Shown piece after piece: positions 24,214-34,742 of a DNA stretch of 64,000 nucleotides (position 1 is the stretch's first letter; the number at the start of each line of letters is the position of its first letter). The stretch spans positions 1 to 64,000 of the forward strand of contig JAJEFJ010000054.1 of the NCBI GenBank assembly GCA_022820485.1. The letters are read 5' to 3'. The translations under genes were made by a program, and so were the position numbers. The DNA comes from Candidatus Latescibacterota bacterium (lineage in GTDB: Bacteria; Latescibacterota; UBA2968; UBA8231). The notes below the pieces were generated by a model. It had not been told where the DNA came from and made no database searches. It saw nothing but the letters and a program-made list of their open reading frames with translations.

Positions 24214-26169
24214 ATGGACTTGCCCCAAAAGCCTACCTTGCAAACCGAGCCGGTCTTTAGCGCCAAAGCGCTGGTGGCGGGCACCCTAGGGTCGCTGTGC
24301 ATCGCCGTGGGAGCACCGTACGGCAACATGGTCATCCGCGGCTCCTACATGTCGATTGATTTCAGCGCCGCGGGTGCCCTGTTCCTTTTCTTTTTGTTGA
24401 CGGGCTTGTTCAACGCCTTGCTGACGCGCTTTGCCGTTTCTGTGGCCCTCGGACGCTGCGAGCTCATCGTCGCGTACATTATGATGCTCACGGCTTCGGC
24501 CATCCCCACGATGGGCCTCAGTGAGTACTGGCTGACGATCATCACCGGCGCCCAGTACTACGCCACCCCGGAAAACGAGTGGGCCTTGCTCATCCTGCCG
24601 CACCTTCCCGAGTGGATCGCACCGCAGGATCCCGAGGCGATCAAGTGGTTTTACGAAGGAGCACCGCGCACCACTGGGGTACCCTGGGCTGCCTGGAGCG
24701 GCCCGCTGTGCTATTGGGCCATTCTCATTGTAGCCCTGTATTTGGTGATGATCTCGTCTATGGTCATTATGCGCCGCCAGTGGGTAGAGCGGGAGCGGCT
24801 AGTTTATCCGCTGGTGCAAGTGCCCTTGGCCATGGTGCAGAGCGGAGGCCGCGGAGAAGCCCTAGGTCCTTTCTTCAAAAATCCAATCATGTGGGTCGGC
24901 TTTGCCCTGCCCGTGCTCGTCAGTAGCCTCAACGCCCTACACGCGTACTTCAACTTCATCCCCGCCATCCAGCTCGTCTCTTCGATTCCGATCCTGCGCA
25001 ACACCGTCAGCCTGATCTTCCGCCTGAGCTTTCCCATGATCGGATTTGCCTATCTGATCAACCTCGACATCGCCTTCAGTCTGTGGTTTTTCAACACCAT
25101 CGCCAAGCTGATCCGAGGGGGGCTGGGAGTTTTAGGGGTTGGCAGCACCGAAAAGCTCGTTTACGGCGCTGCTAGCGAGCCGATCCTCGCCCATCAGGGA
25201 CAGGGCGCGATGATAGTCCTAGTGTTTTTCGGCCTGTGGGTCGGCCGCGAGCACCTGCGCGATGTGCTGCGCAAAGCATTCCGCGGCGACGACCGCATCG
25301 ACGACCGCGGCGAGATGCTCTCCTATCGGGCAGCGGTCTTAACTTGGCTCTCCGGCGTCGCAGTAATGACCATCTGGCTGTGGCAGTCTGGCTTGCCGCT
25401 GTGGGCGGCCTTTTTGACCGTGATGCTGGCCATCCTTATCTTCGTCGGCCTAACTCGAGTGGTAGTAGAAGGAGGTGTGGCCGCGGCGGTCGGACCGATG
25501 ATTTCTCCAACGGTCTTGGTCTCGGCTGTTGGCTCTTCGGCGATCGGCCCGGCCGGTATGGTCGGCCTCGCGTACACCTTCGTGTGGGCGGCTGATATCC
25601 GCACCTTTGTCATGGCTTCCTGCGCACACGGCCTCAAGTTGGGCGAGGGACTAGGGCCGCAGCTACGCCCGCTTTTTTGGTACATACTGCTGGCGATTGT
25701 CGTTAGCATCGTCGGCTCGGTCGCAGCGATTTTGTACCTCGCCTACGAATACGGCGGCATCAACCTCAACCCGTGGTTTTTTGGAGGTGGAACTCGCGCC
25801 CCTTTTGATTATATTACCACCAAGTTAAGTGCGCCCACCGAGCCGAATATCGATGGCTGGATTCACACTTTTGTCGGCGGGGGCATCATGGCCCTGCTCA
25901 TGTGGGCGCGCCAGCGGCTCTTGTGGTGGCCTCTGCATCCCATCGGTTACCCGATTGGTGCCGTATGGCTGATGGACCAGTTGTGGTTTAGCATTGCCAT
26001 CGCTTGGCTCTTAAAGTTGTTGGCGATGAAATACGGCGGCCCCAGTCTTTTTCGCCGGGCGCGTCCTTTCTTTTTAGGCCTAATCATAGGCCAGTTTTTC
26101 ATCGCGGGGCTCTGGTTGATTATCGACTTTTTCACGGGCATGACCGACAATGTGGTCTTCTGGATCTGA
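24214..26169 (+). CDS. DUF6785/DUF6784 family polytopic membrane protein
   Basis: This 651-aa protein has about twelve or more membrane helices. The N-terminal part matches the DUF6785 pattern (AVGAPYGNMVIRGSYMSIDF), and the C-terminus the DUF6784 pattern (RRARPFFLGLIIGQF, WLIIDFFTGM). The family is abundant in Latescibacterota/Poribacteria/Verrucomicrobia-like genomes and is often thought to be related to oligopeptide (OPT) transporters; function is unproven. It lies 31 nt after the Gx gene and 14 nt before the M28-FtsX gene. A second, longer relative follows at 30949. Confidence 0.85.
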   Translation: MDLPQKPTLQTEPVFSAKALVAGTLGSLCIAVGAPYGNMVIRGSYMSIDFSAAGALFLFFLLTGLFNALLTRFAVSVALGRCELIVAYIMMLTASAIPTMGLSEYWLTIITGAQYYATPENEWALLILPHLPEWIAPQDPEAIKWFYEGAPRTTGVPWAAWSGPLCYWAILIVALYLVMISSMVIMRRQWVERERLVYPLVQVPLAMVQSGGRGEALGPFFKNPIMWVGFALPVLVSSLNALHAYFNFIPAIQLVSSIPILRNTVSLIFRLSFPMIGFAYLINLDIAFSLWFFNTIAKLIRGGLGVLGVGSTEKLVYGAASEPILAHQGQGAMIVLVFFGLWVGREHLRDVLRKAFRGDDRIDDRGEMLSYRAAVLTWLSGVAVMTIWLWQSGLPLWAAFLTVMLAILIFVGLTRVVVEGGVAAAVGPMISPTVLVSAVGSSAIGPAGMVGLAYTFVWAADIRTFVMASCAHGLKLGEGLGPQLRPLFWYILLAIVVSIVGSVAAILYLAYEYGGINLNPWFFGGGTRAPFDYITTKLSAPTEPNIDGWIHTFVGGGIMALLMWARQRLLWWPLHPIGYPIGAVWLMDQLWFSIAIAWLLKLLAMKYGGPSLFRRARPFFLGLIIGQFFIAGLWLIIDFFTGMTDNVVFWI

Positions 26170-26183
26170 GAAAGGCACCAACT

Positions 26184-29100
26184 ATGCCTAAGTTCGCGAT
26201 GCGATGGATGGCCTTCGGCTGGAGTTTGGTCGGCGCAGCACCGGCTTGGACCGAAGTCGATTTTGCTGAGTTGGCGCGCACGGCCCCAGTCGAGCGCGTG
26301 CAGCAAACGATGGACACCTTTGCCGGCTTGGGGTCTAGAGTTGCCGGCTATCAAGGTGCCGACCAAGCGGCCCAGATCGTGCAGGAACGCTTCCGCGCCA
26401 TCGGCCTCGACGACGTCACAGTACACGAATACGATGTATCTATTCCGGTCGATAAGGGCGGATTTCTGCAAGTAGTTGGCAGCGGCGAACAAGTGCCAAT
26501 CCACGGCCTGTGGCCCAATCTCGTCAAAACCTCGACGCTGCCCGAAGGCGGGATGACCAAGCGCTTGATCGACGCGGGCGCGGGTGAGTACACGGACATG
26601 GACGGCAAGCAAGTCGAAGGGTCCGTAGCCCTGATGGACTTCAATTCGGGCGACGCCTGGCTCAATGCCGCTTACCTCGGGGCGCAAGCTATCCTCTTTA
26701 TCGAGCCGGACTCCACCGTGTACTTGGAGGGCGAGAAGAAATTCCTCACCATGCCGCTCGACCTGCCGAGGTTTTGGGTCAATCGCCAAGTCGGTCAGCA
26801 CTTGCGCCGCCAATTGGCGACCGAGGGCGAGCAGACGCTTCACCTGCAGTACCGCATGGATTGGGAGCGGCGTCCCGCTTGGAATATCCTCGGCACGATC
26901 CCGGGATACGATCCCTTGCTAAAAGAGGACGTGATCGTGCTAGAAGCGTACTACGACGCCATGTCCGTGGTGCCAGCCCTTGCCCCAGGTGCCGAGCAAG
27001 CCTCCGGCATTACTGCGCTGTTAGAGCTGGCTCGCTACTTTCGCGAAAATCCACCAGCGCGCACGGTCGTATTCCTCGCCACTTCGGCCCACCACTTGGG
27101 CTTGCGCGGGGTTGATGATTTCATCCAACGCTATTTGCGCAAAGAGGAGCCCTTCATAGAGCACATGCTGGTGAGGCGGGTCGTCGATGCTGCACTCGCG
27201 CGGAACATGATCGCCCAAGACGGCATCCACTACGCCATCGGCGAGGAGGAGTTCGCCGGTAAGGAAGCCCTCGTGCGGGGCGTTGCCGAAGGGCGCACCG
27301 ACTTGGCCGCGCACGTTGCCGACGCAGCCCTCGCCGAAGGGCTGCTGAGCCAAGAAGGAGGCGCACTACACCTCGCCGACGAGCAATTCAAAGATCGCCG
27401 CGAACTGGTTGACGAATTGCGCTCGGACGATGACTTGCGCCTCGCGCTCTTCAAAACTTGGGTCGATCCCAAAGTCGATTCGCTCGCGGTCAAGCTCTTT
27501 ATCAGCCTCGACCTTTCGTCGCAAACCGACGAACTCGGAGTGTGGAATAGCAATACCAGCTTTTACTACAAGCGCTACTTCGCACCCTTCGGCAAGAACT
27601 TCATGGGGTACGCGCGCAAGATCAGCCGCGAGTTGAATTATCAGCGGCGCGATGTGCTGGTCAATGGCATCAGCCCCGAAGGCGGGATGAGTTGGCAGAC
27701 CTTTGTACCAGGCGAAATATCGGTCAATAGCGAATTGGTGTTGGCGACCGGTACGCCGGCATTGGCCTTTGTCACTGTCAACGACGCGCGCTTCCTCGTC
27801 GATACGCCCTTAGACCGGGCCGAGCACGTCAACTACGCCAACCTCGCCAAACAAATCCGGGTGCTCTCCGGCATGTTCGAAATGGCCTTTGCAGACCCAG
27901 AGCTATTCCCAGACTTCAAAATGCGCTTGCGCGACACGCTGCGCTCGCTGCGCGGCCGGACTATGGTCTTTCCGCGCCGCAGCATCATCCCCGACTTGCC
28001 GCGTGCAGACGCCGTAGCCGTGGTGCGCAACGGCAAGAAAAAGTCGTATAAAGGCGTGCGCGGTGAGTACTACGAAGTAGTAGATGATAAGGGGGCCTTC
28101 TACGTAAATCGGGTGCGGGTCAACAACGTGCAGATCGAGGGCTACTACATGGACCCGATCACCGGCCGCATCACCTACGCCCCCGACCGCGGAGTGCAAG
28201 GCGACGAAAGCTACCCCATGCGGGTCGCCATGGACTGGCGCGACAAGCAGTGGATGGTCATCCTCTTTCCCTGTGTGCCCTACAACTTCTTCGACATCGT
28301 CGATCCGCGCTATCTGACCAAGCTGTCCAACGTGCAGGTCTTCGACGAAACGAACGGTCCACCTGTGGAGTACGGTTACACTATCGGCGAAGGCCCTTCG
28401 GCCCAAAACGAGCCGGTCGGGGTGCTCTTCGCACGGCCCGGTTCGCACATCAAGATGGGATTCGGTGCCGGCCTGCTGGGATTCCGCTCGCTCCTGCTCA
28501 ACGCCACCAGCGTAACCGACAAGGAAAAGGCCGAGGGCGAGGGCTTCGAGATCCGCCCCGGTACTTCCTTTGCCCGCACGACCTTCCAAGCCGCCCAAGA
28601 CATGTGGAATCTCGACGAGTCGCGAATGCGCGAGCTGCGGAGCTTTGCCATTGAAAACCAGCGCCTCAACGACCTCCACTATCGCGCCGAAGCTGAGCTA
28701 GCCCAAGCCTCCGAGGCTGAGACCGAGCAACGCTGGGGCGATTTCGTGCGCCACACGCGCGCGGCCTTCGGGCTGGAATCGCGCGCCTATCCAGACGTCA
28801 AATCCACCCAAAACGACGTCATTCAGGGCATTATCTTCTTCATGGCCCTCGTCCTTCCCTGCGCCTTTTTTACCGAGCGGCTCATTTTTACGGCCGCTAC
28901 GATCCGCAATCAGATCATCGGATTCGCCGGGGTTTTTCTGGCGATCTGGATCGTGTTGTGGCTGGTGCATCCGGCCTTTCAGCTATCCAATCCCTTCGTC
29001 ATCCTGCTGGCCTTTATCATTATCGCCTTGGCAGTGCTGGTGATGTCGATCATCTCCGGCCGCTTTAACGAGCAGATGAAGAAGCTGCGCACCGAAGTAG

Positions 29101-30935
29101 CCGTGATCCACGACACGGACGTCAGCCGCTCTTCGGCCTCGCTGACGGCCTTCCAGCTCGGGATTTCCAACATGAAGCGGCGCAAGACGCGTACGGTGCT
29201 CACCTTTACCACGCTCTTGCTGCTAACGTTCACAGTGCTCTCTTTTACCTCCATCCGCACGGGCTTGCGATTCAACCAAATCAGCCGCGACAACGAGGGT
29301 CTCTACGAGGGCATCCTCATCCGCAGCAAGGCGTGGAATCCGATGGAGGATTCAGTCCTCGAATACGCCCGCAGTAATTTCGGCGATCGAGCCGCAGTCG
29401 CACCGCGCAGTTGGTATAGCAACAAGGCCAAAGCGCACATTAAAATAAAGCACGGAGACAAGGCCCATAACGCGCTCGGCGTCCTAGGTTTAGCACCCGC
29501 AGAGACTCAAGTTACTCGGCTCAATCAAGCCCTAGTCGCCGGACGCTGGTTTGAGCCGGGCGAGGACAAGGCCTGTATCCTGCCCATCGACATGGTCAAG
29601 GAAGCCCATCTCGATGTCGATTTGGCCGACGTTGGTCAAGCGCAAGTCAGGGTCTTCGGCGACTTGTTCACAGTGGTGGGCGTCCTCGACTCCAAGCGCA
29701 TGAAGGACCTCAAAGACCTCGACGACGAAATTCTGACGCCAGCCGACTTCGCCGTCACCGGCGGTCAGGCAGTGCAGGAAATAGCGGAAGAAGAACAGCG
29801 CGAGAAACAAGGTCTGGAGGACGCCAAGGTCGTCATCAAGCCCTTCGTCCACATAGAGCCAGCCAACACCCTGATTATTCCCTACCACACGTTGCGCAAC
29901 GTCGGCAGCGGCAACCCACTACAGTCGGTAGCCGTGCGCTTCCCCGCAGGCAGCGATGTGCGCGGCGAGGTCGAGGAGTTCCTCTCGCGCCTCGCGGTAA
30001 CGCTGTTCGCCGGAGTCAAGGAAGCCGGCGATGAATACATCAAGGTGTCGATCTACTCATCGCTGGGCATGACCTCCTTTTCCGGGATGAGCAACTTGTT
30101 CATCCCCATGCTGATCGCCTCGCTAATCGTGCTCAACACCATGATGGGTAGCGTGTACGAGCGCTTCCGCGAAATCGGCATCTACTCTTCGGTGGGCCTA
30201 GCCCCCGGCCACATCTCATGGCTTTTTATCGCCGAGAGTTGCGTCTATTCGGTGCTGGGCGTGGTCGCCGGTTATCTCAGCGGCCAAGTAATCGCCAAAG
30301 TACTCATCGAATTTGACCTTTTGGGCGGCTTCACGCTCAACTACTCTTCGGTGGCCGCGGTGCTCTCCTGTATGCTAGTGATGGCCGTGGTCATGCTCTC
30401 GACGATTTATCCGGCGCGCAAGGCTTCGCAAATGGCCGTGCCGGACGTGACCCGCAAGTGGAAGCTGCCACCGCCCGACGGCGACCAGTGGGATTTCGAG
30501 TTCCCCTTTACGGTTAGCGGCCACGAGGTCTTGGGCTTGAGCGTATTCCTCATCGGCTACTTCGACTCCTACAGCGAAGAGTCCATCGGCACCTTCTACA
30601 CCGACGGTGCCCAGCTAAACCGCGAAGAAACGCCCAACGGCGAAGGATACATTATCGACATGAATATCTGGCTGGCTCCGTTCGATTTGGGCGTCAGCCA
30701 ACACGTCACTGTGCGGGCCATGCCAGAGGCCGAGCACAACATTTACGCGGTCAGCCTACAAATCAAGCGGCTCAGCGGCGAGGACGCCTCGTGGCGGCGG
30801 GTCAACCAGCGCTTTATGAACGTCATCCGCAAACAGTTCCTCATCTGGCGCACGGTAGATGCCGAGGCCAAAGAAGGCTACCGCCAACAGGGCGTGGAAA
30901 TTCTACAAGGGCTGCGCAGCGAAGTGTCGGCGTAA
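26184..30935 (+). CDS. Giant FtsX-like permease fused to a degenerate M28/PA peptidase domain
   Basis: From the ATG at 26184 the protein is 1583 aa. A signal peptide (to about residue 22) leads into an M28-peptidase-like domain with a PA insertion (about 130-220). The catalytic region reads EAYYDA, PGAEQASG and SAHHLGL where active M28 enzymes have a GAHYDS-type His/Asp, a DN pair and an EE pair, so the metal site is altered and the domain is probably not a standard peptidase. After a long exported region (about 310-860) come three membrane helices (about 880-960), then a MacB-like periplasmic domain and FtsX permease helices (about 1005, 1305, 1345, 1390), and a soluble tail. No partner ATPase gene is adjacent. 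Confidence 0.85.
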   Translation: MPKFAMRWMAFGWSLVGAAPAWTEVDFAELARTAPVERVQQTMDTFAGLGSRVAGYQGADQAAQIVQERFRAIGLDDVTVHEYDVSIPVDKGGFLQVVGSGEQVPIHGLWPNLVKTSTLPEGGMTKRLIDAGAGEYTDMDGKQVEGSVALMDFNSGDAWLNAAYLGAQAILFIEPDSTVYLEGEKKFLTMPLDLPRFWVNRQVGQHLRRQLATEGEQTLHLQYRMDWERRPAWNILGTIPGYDPLLKEDVIVLEAYYDAMSVVPALAPGAEQASGITALLELARYFRENPPARTVVFLATSAHHLGLRGVDDFIQRYLRKEEPFIEHMLVRRVVDAALARNMIAQDGIHYAIGEEEFAGKEALVRGVAEGRTDLAAHVADAALAEGLLSQEGGALHLADEQFKDRRELVDELRSDDDLRLALFKTWVDPKVDSLAVKLFISLDLSSQTDELGVWNSNTSFYYKRYFAPFGKNFMGYARKISRELNYQRRDVLVNGISPEGGMSWQTFVPGEISVNSELVLATGTPALAFVTVNDARFLVDTPLDRAEHVNYANLAKQIRVLSGMFEMAFADPELFPDFKMRLRDTLRSLRGRTMVFPRRSIIPDLPRADAVAVVRNGKKKSYKGVRGEYYEVVDDKGAFYVNRVRVNNVQIEGYYMDPITGRITYAPDRGVQGDESYPMRVAMDWRDKQWMVILFPCVPYNFFDIVDPRYLTKLSNVQVFDETNGPPVEYGYTIGEGPSAQNEPVGVLFARPGSHIKMGFGAGLLGFRSLLLNATSVTDKEKAEGEGFEIRPGTSFARTTFQAAQDMWNLDESRMRELRSFAIENQRLNDLHYRAEAELAQASEAETEQRWGDFVRHTRAAFGLESRAYPDVKSTQNDVIQGIIFFMALVLPCAFFTERLIFTAATIRNQIIGFAGVFLAIWIVLWLVHPAFQLSNPFVILLAFIIIALAVLVMSIISGRFNEQMKKLRTEVAVIHDTDVSRSSASLTAFQLGISNMKRRKTRTVLTFTTLLLLTFTVLSFTSIRTGLRFNQISRDNEGLYEGILIRSKAWNPMEDSVLEYARSNFGDRAAVAPRSWYSNKAKAHIKIKHGDKAHNALGVLGLAPAETQVTRLNQALVAGRWFEPGEDKACILPIDMVKEAHLDVDLADVGQAQVRVFGDLFTVVGVLDSKRMKDLKDLDDEILTPADFAVTGGQAVQEIAEEEQREKQGLEDAKVVIKPFVHIEPANTLIIPYHTLRNVGSGNPLQSVAVRFPAGSDVRGEVEEFLSRLAVTLFAGVKEAGDEYIKVSIYSSLGMTSFSGMSNLFIPMLIASLIVLNTMMGSVYERFREIGIYSSVGLAPGHISWLFIAESCVYSVLGVVAGYLSGQVIAKVLIEFDLLGGFTLNYSSVAAVLSCMLVMAVVMLSTIYPARKASQMAVPDVTRKWKLPPPDGDQWDFEFPFTVSGHEVLGLSVFLIGYFDSYSEESIGTFYTDGAQLNREETPNGEGYIIDMNIWLAPFDLGVSQHVTVRAMPEAEHNIYAVSLQIKRLSGEDASWRRVNQRFMNVIRKQFLIWRTVDAEAKEGYRQQGVEILQGLRSEVSA

Positions 30936-30948
30936 GGGAGGATAACGA

Positions 30949-33375
30949 GTGCTCGGAAGCAAAAACAGAAACCCGAACCAAGAGATCGAAGAATATCGGG
31001 ACCTAATGCAGGTCCCGGACCGCTTCGAGAACGGCTTTACGATCAAGGCCATCCTCGGCGTGCTCTTCGTCGCCTTCATCATGGTGCCGGGCAACATGTA
31101 CTTGAGCCTGATGATCGGCGGCTCTTTGGGAGCGGCGGCCGAGTGGGTGACCATCATCCTCTTCGCCGAAATCACCAAGCGCTCCTTTTCTTCGCTCCGG
31201 CGCCAAGAAGTCTATGTGCTGTTCTACGTGGCCGGCTCGCTGATTGCCGCGGAGACTGGTGCCTTTGAAGGCTTGCTCTACAACCAGTACTTGGTGCAAT
31301 CGCCAGCGGCCAAGCAGTTTGGCATCGCCAAGCTGATCCCCGGCTGGGTGGCACCGCAGCCCGACTCGTCGGCCATCATCGAACGGACCTTCCTGCACTC
31401 GGATTGGGCGATGCCGATCGTCCTCCTAGTCCTCGGGATGATCATCTGGCGCATCAACTGGTTCACCATGTCGTACGCGCTCTTCCGACTCACCTCCGAC
31501 TACGAGCGCCTACCCTTTCCCTTCGCGCCCGTAAACGCCCAAGGCGCTACGGCACTGGCCGAGACCACCCAAGGGGTTGAGACGTGGCGCTGGCGGGTAT
31601 TTTCGGCAGGGGCGATGATCGGCTTGGTCTTTGGCACGATCTACGTGGCCTTGCCGGCGATTACGGGCGCGCTGCTGACCGAGCCGATCCAACTCATACC
31701 CATTCCCTTTATCGATTTCACCCAAGTCACCGGCAATTTTATCCCGGCTACTCCACTGGGATTTACCGCGCACTTGGGACCGATCTTTGCCGGGCTGGTG
31801 GTGCCGTTCTGGGGCGTGGTTGGCACCTTTATCGGCGTACTCGTCGCCTCCATTGCCAACCCGCTGCTCTACACCTGGACGCCTTCGTGGCGCGAGGAGC
31901 CGTACCTGAACTTGTGGCAGCAAGGCATGGGCACGATCGAGACCTACTTCGTCAACTACGTCGATTTCTGGATGAGTTTCGGCCTCGGCACTACCTTCGC
32001 CATCGCCGCCATCGGCATCTACCAGATAGTTCAGAGCGTGCGCAAGGCTAGGGCTAACAACGGCAATGGAAACGATGGCAGTCCCAAGCGCGGCTTCGCC
32101 ACCCCTGCCGGCCGCGGCGATTTCCCCATCTGGGTGGCGTTGGCACTATACGCCTTGGCCACGGCCGGCCTGATCGGCATCGCCGCTTGGCTGCTGCCGG
32201 GCATTGCCCAATTTATATGGTTCTTCCTCTTCTTTGGTTTCGTATTCACGCCTTTTCAGTCGTTTGTCAACGCTCGCCTAGTCGGGATGGTAGGGCAGAC
32301 GGTGGACGTTCCCTTTGTGCGCGAGGCCACGATTATTCTCTCTGGGTATCGCGGTGTTGACATCTGGTTCATTCCGTTTCCCTTGGGCAACTACGGTGCC
32401 CAGACCCAGAAGTTCCGCGAAATCGAATTGACCGGCACCCAGTTTACCAGCATCATCCGCGCCGAGATTTTCATGGTGCCCATCGTGCTCTTTACCAGTT
32501 TTCTCTACGGCTCCTATATCTGGAAACTGGCACCGATCCCGTCGGCTTCCTACCCCTATGCTCAGCTCATGTGGCGTCTGCGCGCCTACCAGCAATGCCT
32601 TTTTATCACCGGCACCATGCGCAGCGAACTGGCCATAGACAAAGATCAGGCGGGATGGACTCCAGCTAACCTGATCGAAAACGAATGGTGGTACTGGCGA
32701 GTGCGGCTAGTGGATCAGGAATGGCTGGACTCCAACGGCAAGCGCGGTCAAGTCGGCCCGTGGATGCCGACCCAAGTCTTCTACTCGTACTTCGATCAGG
32801 GGGCACCCGACATCGTCGCCGAGCGCTACCTGCGCGACGAGCAGCTAGCCGAAGAGCAAGTTGTCGAGGGCCTGCCGGCGATTGCGCCATTAGGGCCAGC
32901 GATGGACGCCATCATCCGCGATCCCCGCCCGACCCTCGAAGTTCAGGTCGAACGAGCCGTACCGGCGGGGTGGTCTTTCTACTTTGAAGTCGATACCGAT
33001 CCGCTCTTTACCAGTTCTTGGATCCAGCGCTCCAGCGACGTGCCTTGGCTCTTTAGGGCGCTGAAACTTGAGGTCATTGCCTTTGGTGCCGGCTTCGGGG
33101 TGGTGAGCTTTATTCTGCTCTCTATACTCGGGCTGCCGATCCTGTTGATCTTTGGCTTCGTGCGCTCGCTGACGATTCTGCCGCATTACGTGGTGACCGA
33201 GATCATCGGCGCGCTCTTGGCTCGCTACTACTTTTGGAACAAGTACGGGCGGCAGGAGTGGCGGCAGTTTGCCCCGGTTCTGGCGGTGGGCTTCGCCTGC
33301 GGTATGGCGCTGATGGGGATGGCGTCGGTGGGGATCGCCCTAATCCAGAAATCGGTCTCCGTGTTGATCTTCTAG
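30949..33375 (+). CDS. Second DUF6785-like polytopic membrane protein
   Basis: This 808-aa protein is a longer relative of the product of the 24214 gene, with many membrane helices (first near residues 35-52) and a soluble insert at about 540-690 before the final helices. Blocks such as FTMSYALFRLTSDYERLPFPFAPV and FVRSLTILPHYVVTEIIGALL resemble proteins annotated loosely as peptide transporters. It starts with GTG behind a GGGAGG site, 13 nt after the permease gene. Presence of two different paralogues around the permease suggests a shared complex or pathway; this is inference. Confidence 0.8.
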   Translation: MLGSKNRNPNQEIEEYRDLMQVPDRFENGFTIKAILGVLFVAFIMVPGNMYLSLMIGGSLGAAAEWVTIILFAEITKRSFSSLRRQEVYVLFYVAGSLIAAETGAFEGLLYNQYLVQSPAAKQFGIAKLIPGWVAPQPDSSAIIERTFLHSDWAMPIVLLVLGMIIWRINWFTMSYALFRLTSDYERLPFPFAPVNAQGATALAETTQGVETWRWRVFSAGAMIGLVFGTIYVALPAITGALLTEPIQLIPIPFIDFTQVTGNFIPATPLGFTAHLGPIFAGLVVPFWGVVGTFIGVLVASIANPLLYTWTPSWREEPYLNLWQQGMGTIETYFVNYVDFWMSFGLGTTFAIAAIGIYQIVQSVRKARANNGNGNDGSPKRGFATPAGRGDFPIWVALALYALATAGLIGIAAWLLPGIAQFIWFFLFFGFVFTPFQSFVNARLVGMVGQTVDVPFVREATIILSGYRGVDIWFIPFPLGNYGAQTQKFREIELTGTQFTSIIRAEIFMVPIVLFTSFLYGSYIWKLAPIPSASYPYAQLMWRLRAYQQCLFITGTMRSELAIDKDQAGWTPANLIENEWWYWRVRLVDQEWLDSNGKRGQVGPWMPTQVFYSYFDQGAPDIVAERYLRDEQLAEEQVVEGLPAIAPLGPAMDAIIRDPRPTLEVQVERAVPAGWSFYFEVDTDPLFTSSWIQRSSDVPWLFRALKLEVIAFGAGFGVVSFILLSILGLPILLIFGFVRSLTILPHYVVTEIIGALLARYYFWNKYGRQEWRQFAPVLAVGFACGMALMGMASVGIALIQKSVSVLIF

Positions 33376-33376
33376 C

Positions 33377-34369
33377 ATGAGCGACTGGGTGGATTTCGCT
33401 TGGCAAGGGCTGCGGATGTCCGTGCCCGACGATTGGAACCTCGGCCGAGTTGACGGGGACTTTGAAAAGGGCTATGCCCGCCTCGACGACGCCGAGATCG
33501 TGCGCGCCGAGATCGAATGGCGGCGGCTCAAAGGCCGCGGCGAGGCCCTGCGTCTGACTGAGTTGGTAGATCGCTACCTAGCCAACCTGCAAAAGAAGGC
33601 CCAAAAGGTCGATGCTCCCTTTGAGGTCCAGCGCCGCGCCCGATTCCTCAAAAACAAGAAGTTCCTCGAAGGCCGCGAATACGAGGTCTTCATCTGGGAG
33701 GCCGACTTCCGCGCCTACAACCTAGCGCTCGCCTTGAAGTCCGGGCGGGTAGTGCTCCTGCGAGTGCTGGCCAAGCTAGACGAGTTTTTGCCCGAGCAAG
33801 CCGAGGCCGTGTTCAGTTCGCTCGTCGATCAAGAAGCCGAGGATGCGCATCTGTGGAGCGTGTACGGCTTGCGGTTTTTCGCGCCCAGCGACCTCAAGCT
33901 ACAAAGCCATTCCCTCAAGTCGGGCCACATCGAGCTAGAGTTTTCCCTCGGCAAACAAGTTCTGAAGGTGCATCGGTTGAGCATGGCCCGGATTATGCTC
34001 AAAGATGCGCACATTCAAGACTGGTATCCGGTTTTTTTTAAAAAGAATTTGCGCGATTTCGTGGTGGACATTGCGCCAGAAGCTGTGCAGGAACATGAAG
34101 GCATTCGCGTCGAGGGGGGGCCGCGCAGCCGCTGGCGTCAGCTACTGCGACCCCTGCCCTTTATGAATCCGAGGCCGCGCCTGTATCTGCGGGGGCGCGT
34201 CTGGCGCGATACCAGCATCGACAAGATATTCATCGTCGAGCACCTCTACCGCAAGAAAGACGCAGCAGACGATCTAGTCGCCAAGGTAGTAGATGGGCAT
34301 TTTATCGAAAAACAAGGGACCCAAGCTGAGCCGGGCCGCCATGCTGGCGTCGCGGCCAACGCGCAATGA
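33377..34369 (+). CDS. Unknown soluble protein with two similar halves
   Basis: I do not recognise a named family. The 330-aa protein has no membrane segment and appears to hold two related domains: the first begins GLRMSVPDDWNL (about residue 12), the second GLRFFAPSDLKL (about residue 166), both reminiscent of PsbP/Mog1-like folds. It is rich in charged residues. It starts one base after the stop of the upstream transporter-like gene, and its last 77 nt overlap the PqqD-like gene in another frame, so the three are translationally coupled. Likely cytoplasmic. Confidence 0.7.
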   Translation: MSDWVDFAWQGLRMSVPDDWNLGRVDGDFEKGYARLDDAEIVRAEIEWRRLKGRGEALRLTELVDRYLANLQKKAQKVDAPFEVQRRARFLKNKKFLEGREYEVFIWEADFRAYNLALALKSGRVVLLRVLAKLDEFLPEQAEAVFSSLVDQEAEDAHLWSVYGLRFFAPSDLKLQSHSLKSGHIELEFSLGKQVLKVHRLSMARIMLKDAHIQDWYPVFFKKNLRDFVVDIAPEAVQEHEGIRVEGGPRSRWRQLLRPLPFMNPRPRLYLRGRVWRDTSIDKIFIVEHLYRKKDAADDLVAKVVDGHFIEKQGTQAEPGRHAGVAANAQ

Positions 34370-34742
34370 GTCCCTGCGCTGGGAAAACAACGACAACGGC
34401 GAGGTTCAGGTCTCAATAAAGCGCCAAGAGACCTGGAGGGTGCGGCTGCTGTCCAAATTTTTCTACATCCCCAGACAGCGCAAGATCACCCTCGACGAAG
34501 TTGGCAGCGAGGTCTGGCGGATGTGCAACGGTCGCAACTCGGTCGGCCGGATGATCGAAGAGCTCAGCGACAAATACCAGCTCAATCGCAAAGAGGCCGA
34601 GGTCTCCCTGCTCCAGTATTTGAAGACCCTTGGGCAGAAGCGCTTCATCGGCTTTGTGTTAGAAAACGATGAGAGGCCGCCCGGTCGCGGCGTGGCCAGC
34701 GGAAAAAAATGGCAAAAAAAACAAACAGGGGCGAGCAATTAG
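34293..34742 (+). CDS. PqqD-like protein
   Basis: This 149-aa protein has a PqqD-type fold at about residues 50-130 (ITLDEVGSEVWRMC, NSVGRMIEEL, RKEAEVSLLQYL). PqqD domains normally bind RiPP precursor peptides for a radical-SAM partner, but no radical-SAM gene or obvious precursor lies nearby, so a stand-alone role is likely. The start at 34293 gives the family-typical N-terminus (KLSRAAMLASRPTRN). It overlaps both neighbours. Confidence 0.75.
   Translation: MGILSKNKGPKLSRAAMLASRPTRNESLRWENNDNGEVQVSIKRQETWRVRLLSKFFYIPRQRKITLDEVGSEVWRMCNGRNSVGRMIEELSDKYQLNRKEAEVSLLQYLKTLGQKRFIGFVLENDERPPGRGVASGKKWQKKQTGASN

Follow-up and report, generated by a model that had tools for sequence, protein, structure and literature searches.

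An FtsX-type permease fused to a probably non-catalytic M28 peptidase-like domain and encoded between OPT-like transporters in a Latescibacterota genome

As a rule, ABC systems of type VII do not carry their substrates through the inner membrane (PMC12646458). Among them, YbbAP-TesA is a recent example of such a system acting together with a periplasmic partner of hydrolase fold, and it was argued that the partner proteins of type VII systems predict their function (PMC12646458). Here we analyzed a window of 64,000 nucleotides, the whole stretch of DNA under study, from a 6.3 Mb Latescibacterota MAG with an estimated contamination of 8%. It encodes a protein, called M28-FtsX below, that combines a peptidase-like region with a permease of this class.

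The M28-FtsX reading frame (26184-30935, forward strand) is open throughout and codes for 1583 residues. If the gene started at the in-frame TTG at 26004, it would run into the upstream gene, and the start with a signal-like sequence is the ATG at 26184; if residues 1-23 are indeed an export signal, the M28 region would be periplasmic. Pfam matches, all above cutoff, were obtained for M28 at residues 234-318 (38.9 bits for a cutoff of 21.3), MacB_PCD at 1004-1190 and FtsX at 1306-1417. Moreover, phmmer matched residues 41-321 to the Bacillus subtilis aminopeptidase YwaD/BSAP (6hc6, 2e-9) and residues 1230-1417 to MacB. The first-pass annotation of this DNA had described an FtsX-type permease fused to an M28 domain, and the open frame, Pfam and phmmer confirm that this fusion is real. 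As judged by sequence and predicted structure, M28-FtsX is an aminopeptidase fold of the PA-M28B type fused to a MacB/LolC-type FtsX permease, and the architecture of a dead M28B ectodomain on an FtsX-type permease is well supported. The features of the gene and of its neighbors are listed in Table 1.

Table 1. Features of M28-FtsX and of the adjoining genes, in window coordinates.
Feature	Coordinates	Strand	Basis
M28-like/FtsX fusion permease, 1583 aa	26184..30935	+	Open frame; Pfam M28, MacB_PCD and FtsX; seven family copies in own genome
Probable signal peptide or N-terminal export signal, residues 1-23	26184..26252	+	Sequence inspection only
N-terminal and PA-like region of M28B fold, residues 30-227	26271..26864	+	AF2; Foldseek to 2EK8/BSAP
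M28 core, first half	26865..27143	+	Profile-profile alignment to canonical M28s; residue census
Y256-Y257-D258	26949-26957	+	
E271	26994-26996	+	
H303-H304	27090-27095	+	
M28 core insert, residues 325-430, two winged-helix-like repeats	27156..27473	+	Repeat identity; weak sub-cutoff SelB-wing Pfam match
M28 core, second half (D443 27510-27512; D540 27801-27803; D544 27813-27815)	27471..27983	+	Profile-profile alignment; census
Beta-rich juxtamembrane domain, residues 601-875	27984..28808	+	AF2; no Pfam match
Three extra TM helices, residues 877-963, invariant HPAF motif	28812..29072	+	Hydropathy; conservation
FtsX TM1	29190..29255	+	Hydropathy; MacB_PCD match begins here
FtsX extracytoplasmic domain, MacB_PCD-like	29256..30074	+	Pfam PF12704
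FtsX TM2-TM4	30075..30419	+	Pfam PF02687, 56.8 bits; hydropathy
Major coupling helix between TM2 and TM3, VYER.REIG....VGLAP	30156..30206	+	Near-invariant in family; MacB-like position (PMC5985334)
C-terminal domain, probably cytoplasmic, WLAP[FY]DLG motif	30456..30932	+	No Pfam match
DUF6785/DUF6784 OPT-like transporter, 651 aa, 14 bp upstream	24214..26169	+	Pfam, 412 bits
OPT/YSL-fold transporter, 808 aa, 13 bp downstream	30949..33375	+	Foldseek to barley YS1; sub-cutoff NCBIfam OPT_sfam, 3e-4
p330, unknown family, conserved in module	33377..34369	+	18 loci; no Pfam match
PqqD-like protein, 149 aa, overlaps p330 end	34293..34742	+	Pfam PqqD, 1.5e-10; 19 loci

The ectodomain (residues 24-880) was modelled by AF2 with a pLDDT of 93.4 and a pTM of 0.92, and the M28B fold was recovered. 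The top Foldseek matches in the PDB are the M28B aminopeptidases 2EK8, BSAP and PaAP (E 8e-22). They are closely followed by transferrin receptor 1, which is non-catalytic, and by GCPII. The TM-scores are modest (about 0.3 by query and up to about 0.6 by target), and the model also holds the beta-rich domain and the insert of the M28 core. Nicastrin, a non-catalytic protein in which the M28 fold serves for binding, was not matched by M28-FtsX here. The two repeats of the insert are 37.5% identical over 32 residues, and their SelB-wing Pfam match is weak and below cutoff (E 0.018). A segment of similar length is found in 55 aligned family members, including those labelled Armatimonadota; a winged-helix pair would be odd on the periplasmic side.

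To examine the M28 pocket, the family was aligned profile to profile with 20 canonical M28 sequences taken from related genomes of this lineage (E 2.3e-16). In this alignment, the His and Asp of the H-x-D motif of active enzymes correspond to Y256 and D258, the DN pair to E271-Q272, the EE pair to H303-H304, and the following Asp, His and Asp to D443, D540 and D544. The five zinc ligands (H, D, E, D, H) are thus represented by Y256, E271, H304, D443 and D540, with identity kept at D443 only. Y256 occupies the position of a ligand His and D540 that of the last one; E271 falls at the bridging Asp, a pairing uncertain by one position, the DN motif being one residue shorter in M28-FtsX. The first-pass annotation had read YYD, EQ and HH at the metal-site motifs, with which the profile alignment agrees, adding the loss of the last ligand His.

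These substitutions are fixed across the family, as seen in 73 non-redundant near-full-length relatives, M28-FtsX included, with a median pairwise identity of 41%. D258 is invariant and so is H303, which replaces the general-base Glu of the EE pair (73/73 each). D540 is kept in 71 of the 72 readable relatives, position 271 is Glu in 65 and Asp in 6, and position 443 is Asp in 68 and Glu in 5. Position 256 is more permissive (Y in 65, F in 5, H in 3), as is position 304 (F in 44, H in 28, Y in 1). No relative among the 73 has an intact catalytic set, a His at position 256 being present in three only, and catalytic residues intact elsewhere in the alignment were looked for and not found. All seven family copies in the window's genome are full length and none has an intact M28 site; as a control, a true canonical M28 of the same genome displays the normal motifs AHYD...PGADDN...GEELG (locus L160). 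Since the whole family has other residues in place of the general-base Glu and of four of the five ligands, the M28 domain cannot, judging from alignment and model, run the normal two-zinc chemistry. The mean column conservation of the domain is 0.57 and that of the pocket positions far higher, which points to strong constraint and thus to a pocket that is remodelled rather than decaying. M28-FtsX proteins score as Pfam M28 peptidases and should not be named peptidases.

In the membrane part, hydropathy indicates the three extra TM helices followed by an FtsX core of four, with a large extracytoplasmic domain between TM1 and TM2 in agreement with the FtsX and MacB_PCD matches. The FtsX core and TM1 are the best-conserved parts of the protein (0.75-0.78). 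Between TM2 and TM3, the segment VYERFREIGIYSSVGLAP is near-invariant in the family, and its position matches that of the major coupling helix of MacB (PMC5985334). The C-terminal domain of 159 residues, with its invariant WLAP motif and no Pfam match, should be cytoplasmic; no homology between it and p330 was found. The lolCE model gave 10.6 bits for the M28-FtsX permease and 52.5 bits for a small FtsX protein described below, neither reaching the cutoff of 362.

No ATPase gene adjoins M28-FtsX in the window, as the first-pass annotation had noted. In relatives, a LolD-like ATPase is encoded in the neighborhood at 12 loci, nine of them with a gene for a small FtsX of 214-273 residues (L042, L087, L091, L093, L094, L101, L106, L117 and L122) and three without it (L036, L085 and L088). 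This operon with small FtsX and ATPase occurs in other Latescibacterota and in other phyla. Its fullest version, in the same phylum (L042), carries on one strand the genes for DUF6785, a TPR protein, M28-FtsX, the OPT-like protein, p330, the PqqD-like protein, small FtsX and the ATPase; wherever a sampled locus extends far enough, small FtsX is followed by the ATPase. The search for a distant ATPase in the window's genome revealed the same pair on contig C60 (small FtsX 89941-90642, ATPase 90664-91437). The C60 ATPase shares 70-75% of its residues with the nine operon ATPases paired with small FtsX, and the C60 small FtsX is 43-59% identical to its operon counterparts. The ATPase is closest to the LolD model (227 bits, the cutoff of 308 not being reached) and to the MacB/DarD models. 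A second LolD-like ATPase, on contig C31, is about 60% identical to that of L036. The absence of an adjacent ATPase therefore holds for this locus, whereas the idea of a permease without any ATPase is not supported, given the pair encoded in trans and the operon of relatives.

Co-occurrence points in the same direction. A full-length small FtsX occurs in 53 of the 55 genomes with M28-FtsX (the two others have a completeness of 73% and 80%) and is absent from the five without it. The distribution of OPT-like genes over the 60 relatives coincides exactly with that of M28-FtsX, both being present in 55. These counts represent few independent events, and the genomes that lack every component belong mostly to one family. 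In the single-contig genome G004, M28-FtsX and small FtsX lie on one chromosome. Gene order and co-occurrence strongly support small FtsX and a LolD-like ATPase as the probable partners of M28-FtsX, and in the window's lineage this engine, if shared, would work in trans.

The most informative context of M28-FtsX is the presence of conserved OPT-like transporters on both sides. The 808-aa downstream neighbor has no Pfam match, and TIGR00728 gave 19.4 bits against a cutoff of 128, so that OPT membership was not established by sequence models alone. The profiles of both OPT-like families found no match among PDB sequences, and a fold search was therefore needed. The AF2 model of the 808-aa protein (pLDDT 74) has only two significant PDB matches, 7wst and 7wsr (E 6e-9, TM by target 0.65), both corresponding to barley YS1, which belongs to the OPT/YSL transporters and carries Fe(III)-phytosiderophore. 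The upstream DUF6785 protein, which adjoins M28-FtsX in many relatives, is a remote homolog of this neighbor (hhalign E 1.6e-7). In the window's genome, each of the five OPT-like genes has an M28-FtsX gene no more than 9 kb away, the probability of such a random placement being roughly estimated at about 1e-8. Furthermore, on contig C23 of this genome M28-FtsX and DUF6785 are fused in a single ORF of 2088 residues (L030:7330-13596), and comparably long open frames at the matching paralog suggest that this fusion is kept in related genomes. DUF6785 is the object of a large expansion, with 49 matches to this uncharacterized transporter-like family in the genome; given this abundance, the specific link is provided by the 808-aa type and by the fusion, DUF6785 adjacency alone being weak.

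Other features were observed around the module. A paralogous OPT-like protein of 1075 residues (L028:9192-12419) has PDZ domains inserted between its membrane parts. No radical-SAM gene was recognized beside the PqqD-like gene. At L117:8240-13654, sequence inspection showed LptF/LptG-like genes and a Mla-type lipid transport cluster close to the module, on the strand opposite to it.

When 84,980 species genomes were scanned, at least 550 relatives of M28-FtsX were obtained. The 80 that were kept carry the labels Latescibacterota, Gemmatimonadetes/Gemmatimonadota, Armatimonadota, Zipacnadia, Omnitrophota, TA06 and others; these are record labels, nearly all of MAGs, and several records labelled Gemmatimonadetes/Gemmatimonadota are the same contigs that are placed elsewhere in the window's own genus or class. 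It is by their partners that type VII ABC systems are defined. The set of conserved partners, that is the dead M28B domain, the OPT/YSL-fold transporters, p330 and the PqqD-like protein, is present in several uncultured phyla. In the open-access literature that was searched, we found no prior description of the M28-FtsX fusion or of DUF6785, and the partner set appears to be undescribed.

What could such an assembly do? The best reading of the M28 domain is a non-catalytic one of the binding or sensor type, carried by a mechanotransmission permease. We propose, with about even chances of being right, that these proteins form a type VII ABC complex in which the pseudo-peptidase ectodomain captures a peptide-like ligand and acts together with an OPT-like importer. 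M28-FtsX would be the large permease subunit of a complex of the MacB/LolCDE/FtsEX class, the small FtsX and the LolD-like ATPase would be its partners in trans, and the OPT/YSL-fold transporters encoded alongside would join them, as gene order and co-occurrence suggest. The dead pocket would hold the ligand uncut, and this ligand may be a chelate of metal and peptide; mechanotransmission powered by ATP and relayed by the FtsX dimer could then move the ectodomain, and this motion could hand the ligand to the OPT-like transporter or open it. The seven paralogs may share one engine of small FtsX and ATPase and differ in their ligand. The genomic data support that the components of a type VII complex all exist here and are inherited together, and we infer the ligand, the direction of transport and the physical contact with OPT-like proteins from gene order, co-occurrence and one fusion. 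Given how type VII systems usually behave (PMC12646458), coupling to an importer would be unusual. Bolder still, and to our mind doubtful, is the possibility that the mechanotransmission motor energizes or gates the OPT/YSL-type transporter through the dead-peptidase receptor, in a hybrid of primary and secondary transport where up to seven receptor-permeases share one ATPase. If the parts do work together, bacteria would have their own version of the transferrin-receptor principle, with a peptidase fold converted into a receptor and coupled to an ATP-driven machine.

As regards the pocket, the strongest alternative is a new metal site, the other option of the first-pass annotation besides the binding or sensor domain. 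E271, H303, D443 and D540, with Y256, would form a new ligand set, and the domain would then either catalyze another kind of chemistry or sense metal on behalf of the OPT/YSL-type transporter. The near-invariance of these four polar residues is in line with this view, as is the match of the downstream neighbor to an Fe(III)-phytosiderophore transporter. However, position 304 is Phe in 44 of 73 relatives and position 256 is Tyr or Phe in 70, and the normal co-catalytic pair with its general-base Glu cannot form, so that we hold a retooled site to be rather unlikely. Neutral decay of a once-active fused peptidase would explain the loss of the catalytic Glu and of all metal ligands but one, but it is barely credible, the replacements being invariant or nearly so across several phyla and the seven copies of the genome being full length; the invariant replacement residues contradict it.

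For the system as a whole, the main rival is extraction or export of the LolCDE, MacB or YbbAP type, in which the ectodomain would pick up a lipid or peptide at the inner membrane, or obtain it through a PqqD-linked maturation pathway, and pass it outward, the OPT-like proteins being accessory partners. The proximity of the ATPase to the LolD and MacB/DarD models agrees with it, type VII precedents do extract substrates (PMC12646458), and the PqqD-like gene of 19 loci could favor export. Nevertheless, neither an outer-membrane factor nor a MacA-like adaptor was recognized among the recurrent neighbor clusters and the constant partners are importer-fold proteins, which makes this scheme unlikely. 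We find it less probable still that M28-FtsX is an FtsEX-like regulator, which would switch on an envelope enzyme by ATP-driven motion of its dead-peptidase domain and handle no transported ligand: FtsEX-EnvC is a precedent for the ATP-driven activation of periplasmic enzymes (PMC7668044, PMC12646458), but no hydrolase or amidase gene was recognized among the recurrent neighbors.

Read as a type VII complex with a pseudo-peptidase ectodomain, M28-FtsX has in common with MacB, LolCDE, FtsEX and YbbAP-TesA the FtsX core, the MacB_PCD-like domain, the coupling helix and, as gene order and co-occurrence suggest, a LolD-like ATPase as its probable partner. It adds to them the large, putatively periplasmic dead M28B domain, three TM helices and the C-terminal, probably cytoplasmic domain, as well as a likely asymmetric pairing with small FtsX and the OPT-like partners. 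With the M28B aminopeptidases (BSAP/YwaD, PaAP and 2EK8) it shares the overall fold including the PA-like region, while four of the five zinc ligands and the general base are replaced and the domain is fused to a membrane part. The 808-aa neighbor has the fold of OPT/YSL transporters such as barley YS1 (7wst), from which it differs by being bacterial, by an identity of 13% and by its conserved partnership with an ABC permease, a DUF6785 protein being even naturally fused to the permease in one case. Finally, transferrin receptor 1, among the top fold matches, and nicalin, a weak sequence match, use the M28 fold for binding and not for cutting; unlike M28-FtsX, these proteins and nicastrin are eukaryotic and are not subunits of ABC systems.
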